This document shows, one piece after another, positions 821-22,241 of a stretch of 42,529 nucleotides of DNA (its first letter is position 1; each line of letters begins with the position of its first letter). A program made the translations under genes and the position numbers. Origin of the DNA: a virus; the IMG/VR virus record IMGVR_UViG_3300033291_000003, positions 1-42,529 of that record; one strand, given 5' to 3'. The notes beneath the pieces were generated by a model, which was not told where the DNA came from, ran no database searches, and worked only from the letters and a program-made list of their open reading frames with translations.

Positions 821-1201
821 CTAAAATTCACATGGTTCCGGTTTCGTCATCCACGCTAATACTTCACCACCAACACCACACATGTCACCAATATACCAAG
901 TACCGCCGCCATAAAATCCTGTGTGTACTTCTTTACGTCCTGTAGTGGAGAATATGCCGCAAATAAGCACTTCGTTAATTTCGCTATATCCATCAATCAT
1001 AATTCGTTCTTCTGGCAGTCTGTCTTTAACGCTTATCCATTCCATGTCTATATCCTCCTTTAGCCCAAGAAGAAATCTTTTTTTATTATTAGCTAAATCA
1101 CCGTGTGTTGTAACATCAAGCCATACTTTGTTGTCAAAGTTCTCAATTTCATTACGTCTATATTCAACGCCATCAATTTCATAAATTTCATCGTAACCCA
1201 T
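821..1201 (-). CDS. DUF551 protein with an N-terminal extension (possible two-gene fusion)
   Basis: This 126-aa reading frame has two parts. Residues 1-52 are an unrecognised acidic segment. From residue 53 it is a DUF551 domain (MEWISVKDRLPEE, ending in a WMTKPEP motif). A perfect AAGGAGG at plus 1053-1060 sits eight bases before the internal ATG (1045), inside the coding sequence. Either two genes have fused in frame, or both a 126-aa and a 73-aa product are made. The upstream neighbour is an 81-aa unknown. Confidence 0.7.
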   Translation of the reverse strand: MGYDEIYEIDGVEYRRNEIENFDNKVWLDVTTHGDLANNKKRFLLGLKEDIDMEWISVKDRLPEERIMIDGYSEINEVLICGIFSTTGRKEVHTGFYGGGTWYIGDMCGVGGEVLAWMTKPEPCEF

Positions 1202-1216
1202 TCTTTATATCCTCCA

Positions 1217-1462
1217 TTATACCAATTCAACTTCATCAACTCTTGTTTCTTCCCATTTATATGCCTTATGCTCAAAATCAGTCACATCGTCATATCTATG
1301 ATGAATATACTTATCATCGCAAAGTACTTTTGCTTCCTTATAACGTTGCTCCATTTCTTCCTTAAATCTTTCTGCATATCCTTTATTGCAAAATGCTTTT
1401 TCTGTCTCTGTATAACCTCTTTCGTATACATCAAACCAAGATACAACCACATATATTTTCAT
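1217..1462 (-). CDS. Hypothetical 81-aa protein
   Basis: The protein begins MKIYVVVSWFDVYERGYTE, a beta-strand-like start followed by a charged helix (KGYAERFKEEMEQRYKEA). It resembles small phage proteins of unknown function that annotate only as hypothetical. Its ATG overlaps the last bases of the HNH gene by four bases, implying coupled translation. No catalytic or metal-binding residues are evident. Confidence 0.6.
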   Translation of the reverse strand: MKIYVVVSWFDVYERGYTETEKAFCNKGYAERFKEEMEQRYKEAKVLCDDKYIHHRYDDVTDFEHKAYKWEETRVDEVELV

Positions 1463-2813: not shown

Positions 2814-2844
2814 TTTTACTTCCCCTAAATTGTGGCAAATAACA

Positions 2845-2909
2845 AAGCCCCATTTTGCCTACATCAGTACTCCACATATAAAACGTGAACCTTCGACAAA
2901 ACAGGGCTT
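2845..2909 (-). promoter_or_regulatory. Structured 5' leader of the late transcript (15-bp inverted repeat)
   Basis: Plus 2845-2859 (AAGCCCCATTTTGCC) can pair with 2895-2909 (GACAAAACAGGGCTT) over about 15 positions with G-U wobbles near the centre, enclosing about 35 bases. It lies between the predicted transcription start (near 2918) and the first gene at 2813, so the mRNA leader would fold into a long stem. There is no T-run after it, so it is not a plain terminator. An antitermination or protein-binding leader is possible. Confidence 0.45.
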
Positions 2910-2910
2910 A

Positions 2911-3248: not shown

Positions 3249-3717
3249 TTTGTATGCCTCTTAAAAATATATTTGATTTCTCATATACTAGATGAGCAAA
3301 CGCCATATAGTTCAAAAGCTCATCCCGGACGGCAAAAACAGTTCTAATACCAATACCCAATTCATTAGCTATCGTTCTGGGCGTCATTCCTTCATCATAA
3401 CGCATTTTAATATAATCTCTATGGTTTGTATTAATCTGCTCATCAAAATGCTTCCTTGTGGCTTCTGCGGCGCGTAACCAACAGTCAATCCTCATCTGCG
3501 CATTATTTAGAAGCTTCTTTGCTTTATTCGCAGTAGAATCACCATGTGCATATTTCTCTCTAATCGGAATATCTGATATATTAGGGCTACTTTCAATTAT
3601 TGTCTGGCGCTTTTCTTCAAGTTGCTTTTTATAAACAGTATAATGGATAAGATACTCCTCTGCTGTCTTTTTTTCTTCGTCCAAGTCAGGAAATTCAACT
3701 TGTGCATTTGCTTCCAC
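3235..3717 (-). CDS. Late transcriptional regulator, ArpU/RinA/sigma-like HTH
   Basis: A 160-aa protein whose C-terminal third holds a sigma region-4-like helix-turn-helix: YIKMRYDEGMTPRTIANELG followed by a recognition helix (IGIRTVFAVRDELL). The N-terminal half is a long charged helix. In phages of Gram-positive bacteria ArpU- and RinA-type proteins at the end of the early operon switch on late genes. The location fits: the next promoter downstream (2949) reads into the late block. The start is GTG with a well placed GGGGAGG. Confidence 0.72.
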   Translation of the reverse strand: MEANAQVEFPDLDEEKKTAEEYLIHYTVYKKQLEEKRQTIIESSPNISDIPIREKYAHGDSTANKAKKLLNNAQMRIDCWLRAAEATRKHFDEQINTNHRDYIKMRYDEGMTPRTIANELGIGIRTVFAVRDELLNYMAFAHLVYEKSNIFLRGIQNEAK

Positions 3718-3925
3718 GGCCTACCTCCCCTAAATCTTCTATTGCATGTTCAGCAAAGTCTTCTATTTTATTGATAAACGTAAAACCCTTATTTTTGCCT
3801 TTTTGAATGACAGCATATACAGATGTAAATGTTTCTAGTTTTTCATTTCTTTTTATGTCAACAACAAGAGCATCATATGCCCAAACTTTATAAACATGTC
3901 CTACCTTTATATCGCTAACTTTCAT
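3695..3925 (-). CDS. Hypothetical 76-aa protein
   Basis: I chose the ATG at 3925 because GGAGGGG lies seven bases upstream; an in-frame start twelve codons earlier lacks one. The protein (MKVSDIKVGHVYKVWAYDAL) looks like a small SH3/beta-barrel fold, with alternating strands to about residue 55 and then a short acidic helix. It overlaps the regulator start by 23 bases, so the two are probably translationally coupled. Function is unknown. Confidence 0.6.
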   Translation of the reverse strand: MKVSDIKVGHVYKVWAYDALVVDIKRNEKLETFTSVYAVIQKGKNKGFTFINKIEDFAEHAIEDLGEVGRGSKCTS

Positions 3926-15633: not shown

Positions 15634-16065
15634 TTATCCCGCTATTTCTGTTCTTTCCTGTCTCTCATATTCAAGCATTGTTTTTAAAACCATATTGTTG
15701 AACCAATCCTGTATGCTCATATAGCCCAATTCATGTACGGCTGTTTTAAGTGACTTATAAGCTGTTTCTGACAAACGACATCCAGGCCTGCAAGTGTTCC
15801 TATGCCTGTCCACCTTCTTCGTATGTGTAGCGTTCTCGCGGCTCATGCAGTTTGCAAGGTTCATTTCTTCTTTAGTGTATATGTCACTCGGACTCACGTT
15901 GAGAAAGTAGCATAATGCTTTTAGCGTCTCTTTGTTGGTAAGTACTACTCCATGCTCAATGATTGACAATAGTGGTATGCTCATGCATGGCTCTATCTGT
16001 TTAAGATAATCCACGATATCAGTCTGTCTATATTTATTCTTTTCTCGTATCTGTTTGAGGTTCAT
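15634..16065 (-). CDS. XRE-type HTH regulator, 143 aa
   Basis: Residues 2-65 form a Cro/C1-type HTH (KNKYRQTDIVDYLKQIEP, SIIEHGVVLTNKETLKALCY, FLNVSPSDIY). The C-terminal 60 residues include RLSETAYKSLKTAVHELGYM and a helical end that may form a second DNA-binding or dimer unit. It is the first protein gene after the structured RNA region at 16.1-16.97 kb and uses an AAAGGAAAC ribosome site. It could bind the late-promoter operator, but this is speculation. Confidence 0.75.
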   Translation of the reverse strand: MNLKQIREKNKYRQTDIVDYLKQIEPCMSIPLLSIIEHGVVLTNKETLKALCYFLNVSPSDIYTKEEMNLANCMSRENATHTKKVDRHRNTCRPGCRLSETAYKSLKTAVHELGYMSIQDWFNNMVLKTMLEYERQERTEIAG

Positions 16066-16266
16066 AATGTTTCCTTTATATATCCTCCGTAGAGGTTGAT
16101 TGCGCGGGTGGGCTTTCCAACAACGTTGCCCAAGCGTCCTCGGGACGCCGGTACTCGCCCACCTTATTGCCCCTGCAATAGATTCCTCTATCGCTTTAAC
16201 GGACTGGCCGTCCGAACCATTTGTCTCCCACGAGATAGATCAAGATTATTGTCTTGGTCACATTCA

Positions 16267-16283
16267 CACGGAGTTGAACCGTG
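16267..16283 (-). other. T-loop hairpin 4 (CACGG-TTCAACT-CCGTG)
   Basis: A 5-bp stem with a 7-base TTCAACT loop, matching the tRNA T-arm consensus. It has no recognisable acceptor or anticodon arm around it. T-loops also occur as tertiary-contact modules in large RNAs. Confidence 0.6.
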
Positions 16284-16313
16284 CTCCCTTCGCTCCATGC
16301 CCTCGGTTAGCGA

Positions 16314-16330
16314 TCCCGAATCGAACGGGA
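16314..16330 (-). other. T-loop hairpin 3 (TCCCG-TTCGATT-CGGGA)
   Basis: A perfect 5-bp stem closing a TTCGATT loop, starting four bases after the CCA end of the mini tRNA-like unit at 16335-16376. No tRNA body surrounds it, so it is read as part of the structured RNA. Confidence 0.6.
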
Positions 16331-16334
16331 CTTG

Positions 16335-16376
16335 TGGTAGGCAGTACCGGAATCGAACCGGTTAAACCTTCTGCCC
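16335..16376 (-). other. Miniature tRNA-like unit with encoded CCA (unit 1)
   Basis: Minus strand: GGGCAGA, seven bases, then a perfect T-arm (ACCGG-TTCGATT-CCGGT), ACTGCCT, A and CCA. The 7-base ends pair with six of seven positions, so acceptor stem, T-arm, discriminator and CCA are correct, but the D-arm and anticodon arm are absent. At 42 nt it resembles a tRNA minihelix. It may be a tRNA-derived module in the large RNA or a relic of a deleted tRNA gene. Confidence 0.55.
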
Positions 16377-16594
16377 CCATATTTAATCCTCCGTAGAAGT
16401 TAATCGCATATGCCCCGGCAAGCGCCAGCACACTTAACCGGGGGAATCCTTACCCTGCTGGGGGCTTGCGGGTGAATCCCGAACATCCCGCCCTCGTGTC
16501 TTTCAACGAGAGATCGTCTCAAACCAGACTAACTAGTATCGTCCAGCCACCTTTTGTCCTCTCGGGAAGGACATACGGTGTATCTCAATGGATT

Positions 16595-16646
16595 TGGTGG
16601 GAGTAACCAGAATCGAACTGGTAAAACGCCTCTTAACGTTTCTCCC
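16595..16646 (-). other. Miniature tRNA-like unit with encoded CCA (unit 2)
   Basis: Minus strand: GGGAGAA pairs with TACTCCC (six of seven), with a single 5-bp hairpin (AAACG/CGTTT, 8-base loop) in place of both D- and anticodon arms, then the T-arm ACCAG-TTCGATT-CTGGT, discriminator A and CCA. The total is 52 nt. It shares the same internal A-A mismatch near the base of the acceptor as unit 1, suggesting a common design rather than random decay. Confidence 0.55.
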
Positions 16647-16767
16647 CCATGGGCCGGGGATATCCGCAATACCCCGGCATACTTCGCTTCATCCCTCGTC
16701 AGGGTCCGTCAAACCTGCGGATGAATGACGGATACATAGCCGCGCTCTCGTTGTTGGCGGCGCTTGT

Positions 16768-16874
16768 GACAGGGGCAGGATTTGAACCTGCATGGGTTGC
16801 CATTATGACATTAACCCTCACCGAAGGTTGCGACCCTTCCAAGCTGCGTCTTTCCAGACTTCCGCCACCCTGCC
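16768..16874 (-). tRNA. Divergent long-variable-arm tRNA-like gene (anticodon-like CGC)
   Basis: The 107-nt minus-strand unit has acceptor GGCAGGG/CCCTGTC (one G-U), a Leu-like D-arm (GCG...CGC with GG in the loop), a 5-bp stem GAAGG/CCTTC with loop GTCGCAA, a long variable arm closed by GGGTT/AACCC, and a perfect T-arm (GCAGG-TTCAAAT-CCTGC). Six unpaired bases between D- and anticodon arms, and an Ala-type CGC anticodon on a type II body, are abnormal. It may be a non-standard phage tRNA or a tRNA-mimic. CCA is not encoded. Confidence 0.45.
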
Positions 16875-16895
16875 ATATAAAGTTTTCAAAAATGC

Positions 16896-16967
16896 AGGCG
16901 GGGAAAGGATTTGAACCTCTCGTGCCGGATTAACAATCCGGTGGTCGATCGCACCATTTTACCCGCC
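16896..16967 (-). tRNA. tRNA-Asn(GUU), divergent D-arm
   Basis: The 72-nt minus-strand gene has an acceptor GGCGGGT/CCCCGCC (one mismatch at the inner end) and an anticodon arm CCGGA-TTGTTAA-TCCGG with anticodon GUU at plus 16932-16934. The T-arm is AGAGG-TTCAAAT-CCTTT with one wobble. The D-stem is best drawn as TGGT/ACCA with a 7-base loop lacking the usual GG, after a four-base linker. The 3' end is TGCA, not CCA. The leader TTTGAAAAGTTAATATGGC resembles the spacer before the next tRNA-like gene. Confidence 0.65.
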
Positions 16968-17618: not shown

Positions 17619-17837
17619 TTATGCGACTGTCTTGCTAAAAAAAATATCAATTGCTTCTTGCGGAGAAATATTAAGGCATTCGCAAAGCCTATGAATGTCC
17701 TCGATCAAAAGCTTGTTCCTCTTTATCCGCCTATAAAAAGTTGTTCTATCAATGCCTATTTCCTTCGCGATGGCTTCTTTCGTTGTCCTCTGTTCGGCAA
17801 TTTTCCCGTTAAGTTTATCAATGTCAACGCGATACAT
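17619..17837 (-). CDS. Cro-like HTH repressor, 72 aa
   Basis: This is the first gene of the leftward early operon. MYRVDIDKLNGKIAEQRTTK is followed by the HTH AIAKEIGIDRTTFYRRIKR, then helices ending DIHRLCECLNISPQEAIDIF. Its size and position opposite the XRE repressor suggest a Cro counterpart. Transcription should start from TTGACA-17-TATTCT at 17892-17920. GGGGAGAGGGGA precedes the start. Confidence 0.75.
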   Translation of the reverse strand: MYRVDIDKLNGKIAEQRTTKEAIAKEIGIDRTTFYRRIKRNKLLIEDIHRLCECLNISPQEAIDIFFSKTVA

Positions 17838-20242: not shown

Positions 20243-20452
20243 ATGCCTAATCTAAATAACATATATACCGCAGCAGAAGCCGCCATATTATGGGGGCTAG
20301 AAGAAAGTACAGTACGCCGGGCATGTTGGGAAAAGCGTTTCAAGCCAGGCATAGAGGCCAGAAAGTCACCACCCAAGGATCGCGGAATATGGTTGGTTAC
20401 CAGGAAAGGTATGGAGCGGCTATATGGAAAGCGAAAGGATGATATAAAGTGA
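20243..20452 (+). CDS. HTH protein (excisionase/MerR-like), 69 aa
   Basis: A winged-HTH pattern: YTAAEAAILWGLEESTVRRA, then CWEKRF, a GIEARKSPPKDRG wing and IWLVTRKGMERLYG. This matches helix-turn-helix 'DNA-binding domain' proteins such as Xis or small regulators. GGAGAAAA precedes the ATG. It lies between the cargo promoter and the glycosyltransferase and near attP, so it may be an excisionase or the regulator of the cargo operator. Confidence 0.65.
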   Translation: MPNLNNIYTAAEAAILWGLEESTVRRACWEKRFKPGIEARKSPPKDRGIWLVTRKGMERLYGKRKDDIK

Positions 20453-22005
20453 AAAAACATATTCATCTAATATTGGTAATAGTGATCATGCTGGTGGGGA
20501 TTTTTGTCCGGGTTTATGACTTTGGCAATACCCCATATGGATTAAATCAGGATGAAGCAAGCCTTGGATACGATGCTTGGGCCGATATGAATTATGGAAT
20601 GGATCGAAATGGGGACCATAACTCTATATATTCCGTTGCGTGGGGATCGGGACAAAACGTCCTTTACAACTATATGGTCCGTCCGTTTATTGCCGTCCTG
20701 GGACTCAACATATTGGCCGTAAGGTTGCCTATGCTTATCTTTGGTATATTGACTCTAATAGTATTTTATTTGCTCTGCAAGCAATTATACGGGCCTACTG
20801 TTGCCTTATTGTCTCTATTTATTCTAGCAGTCTGTCCGTGGCATATCATACTGTCTCGCTGGGGGCTAGAATCAAATTTTGCGGCACCTGTAATTGTGTT
20901 TGCTATGTATTGTTTTGCACGGATTAAAGATAATGATATATGGTTTATCCCTGGAATGGTTTTTACTGCCCTGCTTATGTATGCCTATTCTGCCCACCTA
21001 TTTTTTCTTATCATATTTGTTCCGGCGATATGTATATATATTTTAATGAAAAAGTTGGTTTCTCCGAAATGGTACTGGATAGGCGTTGGCGTTTTTCTTC
21101 TTGTGTCCGCACCGATGGGAGTATTCTTTATTGTCAATAAATTAGGCCTTGACCCTATAAAATTTCTTGGCTTTGCCATACCGCGTCATTCCATGCTGCG
21201 GTCAGATTTTGCCGTGAGCTTATTCTGTAAATACGATAGCGAGACATTCTTTCAAGCGCTTGCAGGCAATATACGACTTATGGGCGATATGTTGTTTAAA
21301 TTTAAGGGCCAGTTTGATAATTACAATGCACCCAACCAATTCGGGGCGCTCTATATATTTATGATGCCTTTTATGTTAATAGGTATTAGCGCAGCTATAA
21401 ACAAAGCGCGGAAGGATCGCGGCGCGTTACTTCTTCTCACTTGGTTTCTCTGCATCGTGATTGAAAATCTTATTGTTGGAACAAATATAGTCAGGATGAA
21501 TATAGCATTTTCCCCGATGATTATATTCGTAGTTTTCGGGATTATGTGGATCGCGGAAAGATTAAAAGCCGCGCTGCCGATATTTATAATTATAACATGC
21601 TTTGCCACTATACCGTTTTTAAATTATTATTTTACGGATTTTAATAACGAAATGTCCGGACATTATTACGGTGGTTTTGATAATGCCATAGCTTATGCCA
21701 CAGATAATGCAACAGGAAATATATATATGACAGAGGAAGATAGAGAACCATATATTATATCTTTATTTACCGAAAAAATACCGCCGCAGGAATTTTTAAA
21801 CACAGTACAATATGATAGTTATGATTATCAGTTTAGACATGTAATTCAATATAAAAATTATATAAGCGGGATACCGGAAGAAATTATACAAAAACAAGGT
21901 GATGCATATATATTTAAGATCAATGAGGAAATATATGTAGGATTAATTAGTGATAAAAATATTATTTATAATTTTGGAGATTATATAGTTATTATTGTAA
22001 AATAA
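20449..22005 (+). CDS. GT-C membrane glycosyltransferase (PMT/ArnT-like), 518 aa
   Basis: The protein starts with a membrane span and the first-loop motif NQDEASLGYDAW, an Asp-Glu pair typical of GT-C enzymes that use polyprenyl-linked sugars. About ten hydrophobic spans follow to residue ~400, then an extracellular domain of about 120 residues. The GTG start overlaps the HTH gene by four bases. In prophages such enzymes change cell-surface glycans of the lysogen (lysogenic conversion, exclusion of related phages). Its AT-rich 3' end differs from the rest and may mark acquired DNA. Confidence 0.78.
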   Translation: MKKHIHLILVIVIMLVGIFVRVYDFGNTPYGLNQDEASLGYDAWADMNYGMDRNGDHNSIYSVAWGSGQNVLYNYMVRPFIAVLGLNILAVRLPMLIFGILTLIVFYLLCKQLYGPTVALLSLFILAVCPWHIILSRWGLESNFAAPVIVFAMYCFARIKDNDIWFIPGMVFTALLMYAYSAHLFFLIIFVPAICIYILMKKLVSPKWYWIGVGVFLLVSAPMGVFFIVNKLGLDPIKFLGFAIPRHSMLRSDFAVSLFCKYDSETFFQALAGNIRLMGDMLFKFKGQFDNYNAPNQFGALYIFMMPFMLIGISAAINKARKDRGALLLLTWFLCIVIENLIVGTNIVRMNIAFSPMIIFVVFGIMWIAERLKAALPIFIIITCFATIPFLNYYFTDFNNEMSGHYYGGFDNAIAYATDNATGNIYMTEEDREPYIISLFTEKIPPQEFLNTVQYDSYDYQFRHVIQYKNYISGIPEEIIQKQGDAYIFKINEEIYVGLISDKNIIYNFGDYIVIIVK

Positions 22006-22025
22006 AAAAATAAAACTTCATAGAT

Positions 22026-22054
22026 TTGATGTTGTTGTTTTTTTATGGTATAAA
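22026..22054 (+). promoter_or_regulatory. Candidate promoter for the 45-aa membrane protein
   Basis: -35 TTGATG (22026-22031), 17-base spacer, -10 TATAAA (22049-22054). It lies in a very AT-rich stretch where chance matches are common. The start of the small gene is 50 bases downstream. Confidence 0.4.
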
Positions 22055-22103
22055 TAATTTGAATCAACATATATATAAATCAAAAGAAATTTGGGTAAAA
22101 AAA

Positions 22104-22241
22104 ATGAAGTATACTAAAAAATTTTTTAATGCTTTTTTAGGAACATTGCTTATGTTGTCATTGCCGTTTATATATATTGTTATTATTTTTTGGTGTTTAT
22201 ATGATTTAATTGTTATTAAAATTAAAAAAAAGGCCGAGTAA
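22104..22241 (+). CDS. Small membrane protein, 45 aa
   Basis: MKYTKKFFNAFLGTLLMLSL continues PFIYIVIIFWCLYDLIVIKI and a Lys-rich tail. It has one or two hydrophobic spans with positive ends. The ATG at 22104 has only GGGTAA upstream; an earlier in-frame ATG (22026) would overlap the promoter. It is extremely AT-rich. Its stop lies inside the convergent terminator. Function unknown; possibly part of the cargo. Confidence 0.5.
   Translation: MKYTKKFFNAFLGTLLMLSLPFIYIVIIFWCLYDLIVIKIKKKAE

Follow-up and report, generated by a model that had tools for sequence, protein, structure and literature searches.

The question raised by this locus was what is encoded between positions 16084 and 16767 of the window, the 42.5-kb virus record IMGVR_UViG_3300033291_000003 of IMG/VR (42,529 nucleotides, analyzed at full length), where a sequence-only reading had proposed a giant structured RNA of the GOLLD/ROOL kind. 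The record carries genes for integrase, terminase, portal, major head, tape measure and endolysin, and represents a temperate tailed phage for which a search via a neighboring protein found no close relatives. The GC content of the region is 0.49 to 0.55, versus about 0.33 to 0.47 over most of the remaining record, and its open reading frames at 16096-16365 (+), 16100-16396 (+) and 16649-16933 (+) gave no Pfam match; together with the covariance-model match described below, this bore out its description as GC rich, free of credible genes and structured. Read on the minus strand, it is flanked by a leftward early gene set that includes an HTH regulator (17619-17837) and, downstream, by an HTH protein gene (15634-16065, minus strand) showing weak matches to HTH_19 and to the phrog_3 repressor. 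The folding z-score of the 684-nt minus strand was −2.9 (20 dinucleotide shuffles) and that of the plus strand −2.87, so folding energy alone is just modestly unusual and does not single out the strand. Windowed z-scores of the region were unexceptional for this phage, and minimum-free-energy z-scores were rejected as nondiscriminating evidence. Elsewhere in the window, the sole Rfam match at gathering level was a DUF3800-VIII RNA at 2844-2910 (minus strand, 59.5 bits), and a protein of 518 aa matching PMT_2 mannosyltransferase, possibly the product of a lysogenic-conversion gene, is encoded near the integrase at 20449-22005 (+), close to an AT-rich stretch (0.21 GC around 21800-22200).

The first homologue came from a blastn search of phage records, as a 119-nt match of 76% in Pseudomonas phage D6, where it lies in a gap that follows tRNA-Leu and bears no annotation. 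D6 used as query led to Salmonella phage SA002 (where an annotated "hypothetical protein" overlaps the RNA), the Pseudomonas putida phages Holyagarpour and Ebordelon, Klebsiella phages FBKp24 and Centimanus, Shewanella phage SXP01 and Pseudomonas phage OBP. Further members came from pattern scans of IMG/VR, from which the chance matches L007, L009-L011, L029, L032 and L038 were rejected by sequence or by R1, the covariance model built from 21 members. In all, 42 distinct members were collected from jumbo phages (D6, OBP, SA002, FBKp24 and SXP01), 75-kb Pseudomonas phages and IMG/VR contigs. The window copy, a conserved core of about 165 nt at 16167-16332 (minus strand) in the 3′ part of the region, has helices P1 to P6 and scored 162.2 bits (E = 2e-44) against R1, far above noise, being itself one of the 21 training sequences; the 41 other distinct members scored 60 to 179 bits. 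R1 finds no other copy in the window, where the next best match with filters off reaches 6.6 bits.

Extensive compensatory change was already apparent when the 21 members were aligned with MAFFT and folded with RNAalifold. In the 42-member alignment, which was fitted to R1, 96.2% of cells at paired positions held standard pairs, versus 64.4% after shuffling and 35 to 43% in slid controls, and the covariation among homologues that had been named as a check was found in 509 double-change cells versus 139 shuffled. The unrefined 21-member MAFFT alignment, not fitted to the model, agreed (91.4 versus 64.6% paired; 238 versus 72 double changes). Rfam 15 gave no match over the core at gathering or relaxed thresholds. 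Among the collections searched, the family was found only in phages: all 22 pattern matches in bacterial genomes were rejected by sequence or R1, and R1 found no match in sets of 299 and 300 bacterial genomes, which is weak evidence of absence from bacteria since nine candidates were scored per genome. We found no description of the family in the literature; a prior entry in a large survey of phage structured-RNA candidates is possible. By sequence comparison, then, 16167-16332 (minus strand) belongs to an RNA family that is widespread among phages and lies outside Rfam 15.

The core secondary structure, as shown by covariation, comprises two T-arms, a long-range helix, two hairpins with GG loops, a variable hairpin and two further hairpins, in the 5′ to 3′ order P1, P2 5′ strand, P2a, P3, P4, Pd, P2 3′ strand, P5, UUAAA, P6 and AGGGGCAA, all on the minus strand. 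P1, the first T-arm hairpin (16314-16330, loop UUCGAUU), is paired in 91.7% of cells with double changes in 5 of 5 pairs, and P3, the second (16267-16283, loop UUCAACU), in 98.1%, again with all five pairs covarying. The central junction is closed by P2, a long-range helix of four pairs between AACC at 16305-16308 and GGUU at 16215-16218 (97.6% paired, 4/4 pairs covarying), which appears across members as AACC/GGUU, GGUC/GACC or GGCC/GGCC. P2a (16292-16300) is a 2-bp hairpin with an AUGGA loop (95.2% paired), and Pd (16225-16234), with a near-invariant stem, reads CUC-GUGG-GAG in the window and CUC-UGGU-GAG in the family structure; each thus presents a GG. The optional P4 (16238-16259), with a conserved CAAUAA loop, is absent from seven members and 94.6% paired where present. 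P5 (16200-16214, CGGAC-GGCCA-GUCCG) abuts P2 and covaries at 99.0% pairing; in the family structure UUAAA separates it from P6 (16175-16194, conserved (A/C)GGAAU loop; 96.7% paired, 7/7 pairs covarying), after which AGGGGCAA forms the 3′ end.

In the tRNA elbow, the GG of the D-loop locks the T-loop. Members with a canonical P1 T-loop carried the GG of P2a in 28 of 29 cases, versus 7 of 13 otherwise ([[28,1],[7,6]], p = 0.0019), and a canonical P3 T-loop was accompanied by the GG of Pd in 24 of 25, versus 8 of 17 otherwise ([[24,1],[8,9]], p = 0.0004), whereas the crossed combinations showed no association among the 42 members (p = 0.70 and 0.41). These p values take no account of phylogeny; after clustering at 80% they were 0.026 for P1/P2a and 0.0009 for P3/Pd, and at 70%, where too few classes are left, 1 and 0.11. 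This paired co-occurrence, which is not proof, predicts two intramolecular elbow contacts and supports a model in which the P1 T-loop would dock in P2a and the P3 T-loop in Pd. Interdigitated T-loop motifs, in which T-loops dock two per unit in non-tRNA RNAs, occur in RNase P, the T-box and the ribosomal L1 stalk (PMC4919913). The R1 RNA resembles them as a non-tRNA RNA with two T-loops as docking elements, but its T-loops sit on full 5-bp T-arms, and the predicted partner of each is, as in tRNA, a GG loop within the same molecule rather than the other T-loop.

The remainder of the region is made up of other units, all on the minus strand. Identified from the sequence with a script, the minihelices M2 (16335-16376; acceptor and T-arm) and M1 (16595-16646; acceptor, small hairpin and T-arm) have 7-nt acceptor strands and an encoded ACCA, and both lack D and anticodon arms; an ARAGORN tRNA-Arg call at 16335-16427 overlaps M2 and is probably spurious. 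Between them lie about 218 nt of GC-rich noncoding sequence (16377-16594) with no Rfam match and no second R1 copy. Directly upstream are two divergent tRNAs, one a tRNA-like gene with a long variable region (16767-16874, Rfam tRNA 28.5 bits against a gathering score of 29) and the other with a short D arm and, by eye, an anticodon loop GUU for Asn (16896-16955, 23.9 bits against 29). The minus-strand T-loops that had been noticed are thus present in P1 and P3 of the core, in both minihelices and in both divergent tRNAs. These aberrant tRNAs and minihelices would probably be extra processing sites or tRNA mimics. A 3′ extension at 16107-16163 forms a helix, GGUGGGC/GCCCACC, around CCCGAGGAC, and a motif scan of the 42 members found a similar extension in L008 only. 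Also in L008, a sequence 3′ of the core (minus strand, about 3650-3900) looked tRNA-like by eye: acceptor, D and T arms are present, and the anticodon/variable region holds a long insertion. The coordinates 16084-16767 were roughly correct as the extent of the structured DNA and not as that of one molecule: the region probably consists of several units, and a single giant RNA is unlikely.

The borders of the core were informative in this respect. In L196 only 2 nt separate the end of a tRNA (Rfam 74.8 bits) from the RNA, and on the 3′ side of the RNA a tRNA-like gene begins after about 5 nt; the next tRNA follows after 3 nt in L040 and L130, 6 nt in L006, 7 nt in L018 and 13 nt in L138; in the window, the ACCA-ending M2 stops 2 nt 5′ of the core. 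Sequence comparison thus showed that the conserved borders of the RNA fall at tRNA borders in several phages, and with a conserved unit of about 165 nt and tRNA or tRNA-like borders 2 to 5 nt away in L196, L040 and L130, the proposal of a giant RNA was not supported. Spacings of 2 to 13 nt between members and tRNAs in several phages suggest that maturation of the RNA probably resembles that of a tRNA, and the borders at tRNAs and the minihelix would fit excision by tRNA-processing enzymes. Such neighbors are not general: a same-strand ARAGORN tRNA lies within 60 nt in only 8 of the 42 members, 25 have none within 2 kb of available flanking sequence, and many are located between two protein genes. 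In L146 and L211, consensus promoters stand directly upstream. L146 further encodes, between the new RNA and tRNA-Arg, an 84-nt RNA (1137-1220, minus strand) that matches a tmRNA family above the gathering score, has no tag ORF and corresponds to a bare tmRNA tRNA-like domain. In FBKp24 and Centimanus, the RNA has a large tRNA-like unit upstream and, on its 3′ side, about 390 to 400 nt of further noncoding sequence (L015 1626-2028 and L017 1604-1993).

A wider search, with a pattern of P1 and the following TCGNTNRCCGAG, matched at least 120 loci. Among the pattern matches listed, R1 support at E < 1 was obtained for 88 of 116 new loci tested, and 117 distinct anchors had the P1 stem in 101 cases and the P3 T-arm in 79, neither of which the pattern required. 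At least 54 further distinct, weaker members were 93% paired (66% when shuffled), with 303 versus 91 double changes. What this superfamily has in common with the R1 family is the 5′ core, and Ruegeria phage RpAliso and Rhizobium phage N38 are among the phages that carry it; Salmonella Rosemountvirus BP63 has the start in common and a marginal R1 score of 10 bits. A P5-like hairpin of one subgroup also occurs in crAss-like phage cr55_1 and cyanophage Pan5, both with no R1 match. This hairpin, TGACAGCCTGGAAAGACAGGCAC, lies in cr55_1 within about 1.15 kb lacking annotated genes (L188 1206-2358) and recurs in Pan5 and in IMG/VR superfamily members. Two permuted tmRNAs were also found. One, unannotated, lies about 80 nt after the RNA copy of RpAliso (L191 1715-1936, plus strand, 129.5 bits), both sitting in a 1.8-kb noncoding stretch that also holds several odd tRNA-like genes; the other (L134 7301-7455, 81 bits) is at a contig end, which is perhaps an integration site.

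GOLLD is carried by mycobacteriophage Bxz1. Its Rfam model is RF02032, the accession RF01998 previously given for it being that of group-II-D1D4-1. In the window and in nine sister-phage records carrying the same or a related RNA, RF02032 (cut-off, 150 bits) gave one 14-bit noise match and no control genome exceeded the cut-off; ROOL (RF03087; cut-off, 99.1 bits) likewise gave no match in these records, with the controls negative too, ROOL not being found in the intended positive control, Staphylococcus phage K, and the weight thus on cmscan alone. With these searches negative at gathering and relaxed thresholds, the GOLLD/ROOL identity was not upheld, while the structured RNA itself proved real: it lies on the minus strand in a phage tRNA-rich island and covaries strongly. 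The two groups resemble the R1 RNA as phage or prophage RNAs of elaborate structure and unassigned function, often beside tRNA islands (PMC12286853), but the conserved R1 unit measures about 165 nt, against 574 model positions for ROOL and more than 800 nt for many GOLLD RNAs, and it has two T-arm/GG-loop modules. Other known RNAs were compared as well. The stable RNAs C and D of phage T4 (species 1 and 2; 139 and 119 nt) are annotated at the end of the phage tRNA cluster, and rnaC contains a T-arm sequence, but the two-T-arm architecture was not evident by eye and R1 found no match in T4, giving no homology to rnaC or rnaD. tmRNA (RF00023) and permuted tmRNA (RF04321) also bear T-arms and adjoin the R1 RNA in L146 and RpAliso, but an acceptor stem, CCA and tag ORF are all missing from the core, and Rfam found no match in it to RF00023 or its relatives. 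VIPR vrRNAs are phage-encoded ncRNAs of about 100 nt in long intergenic regions, with 9 to 16 YNNGG repeats and a tail (PMC13142463); the location is similar, and inspection of the region revealed no tandem YNNGG repeats.

We consider it reasonably probable that the core is a widespread phage RNA that is processed like a tRNA, is stable and serves in trans as an elbow mimic in translation. tRNA-processing enzymes would cut it from tRNA-operon or early-operon transcripts, its ends being set by the 3′ ends of upstream tRNAs and the RNase P sites of downstream tRNAs, and the excised RNA would accumulate as a stable species. Given the resemblance of its fold, it may then work in trans, mimicking the tRNA elbow or serving as a docking RNA in translation, the least certain part of the proposal; candidate elbow readers would be the ribosome, RNase P, tRNA-modifying enzymes and tRNA-attacking defense proteins, and through such mimicry the phage might steer or shield translation. 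A further reading is a decoy or anti-defense RNA that would mimic tRNA and so absorb anticodon nucleases or other tRNA-targeting host defenses. The T-arms, the clustering with phage tRNAs and the phage-only distribution in the collections searched would suit it, but R1 includes no anticodon arm, no defense partner was identified and a family found across many hosts would more readily have a general target, so that we regard a decoy as rather unlikely.

About a dozen members have a start codon 15 to 110 nt downstream, often together with a ribosome-binding site, and the nearest start codon in the window is about 101 nt 3′ of the core, as would be expected of a cis-acting leader, riboswitch-like or translational, that senses a tRNA or metabolite; the yjdF riboswitch is also tRNA-like in fold (PMC9142559). 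Yet the genes that follow are unrelated across members (an HTH protein, a virion protein, a tellurite-resistance protein, a dNMP kinase, an exonuclease and unknowns), which argues against a riboswitch; several members have a tRNA directly 3′ and no conserved expression platform was seen, making a leader unlikely. A relative of GOLLD/ROOL, with the 165-nt unit as the conserved 3′ domain of a multimer-forming RNA of about 650 nt, appears somewhat less probable again. GOLLD consists of a conserved 3′ and a variable 5′ region, and both RNAs lie near tRNA islands (PMC12286853); the core is found within 500 to 850 nt lacking annotated genes in OBP, SXP01, FBKp24, Centimanus, Holyagarpour and the window, and phages with such long noncoding flanks may make a longer molecule whose 5′ part varies, as in GOLLD. 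However, neither Rfam model matched, compact members total 140 nt, and L196, with tRNA or tRNA-like genes on both sides, and L211, with a promoter just upstream, leave no space for a 5′ domain and show the 165-nt unit standing alone. Functionless decayed tRNA genes would account for the divergent tRNAs and minihelices nearby, and M1, M2 and the divergent tRNAs could be such remnants. For the core, decay is contradicted by hundreds of compensatory double changes in a non-tRNA fold shared by unrelated phages, and as an explanation of this RNA it is extremely improbable. Nor is the core a tRNA by the Rfam model: RF00005 (gathering, 29) gave no match in 16167-16332 even at E ≤ 10.

The locus thus holds a real structured RNA that has no Rfam match, turned up in phages alone among the collections searched and may function as outlined above for an elbow mimic. 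Long "empty" stretches are frequent in phage tRNA islands, and a specific folded RNA common to jumbo phages, medium-sized phages and one temperate phage occupies such stretches recurrently; with the R1 model, this RNA class becomes searchable and can be annotated. More tentatively, it may represent a previously undescribed and very widespread class of phage RNAs with two intramolecular tRNA-elbow modules and tRNA-like processing that acts on translation, and, if so, would form the core of a superfamily reaching Rhizobium, Rosemountvirus and Ruegeria phages and possibly crAss-like and cyanobacterial phages. The predicted double elbow poses a concrete question, namely, which elbow-reading machine of the host this phage RNA addresses.
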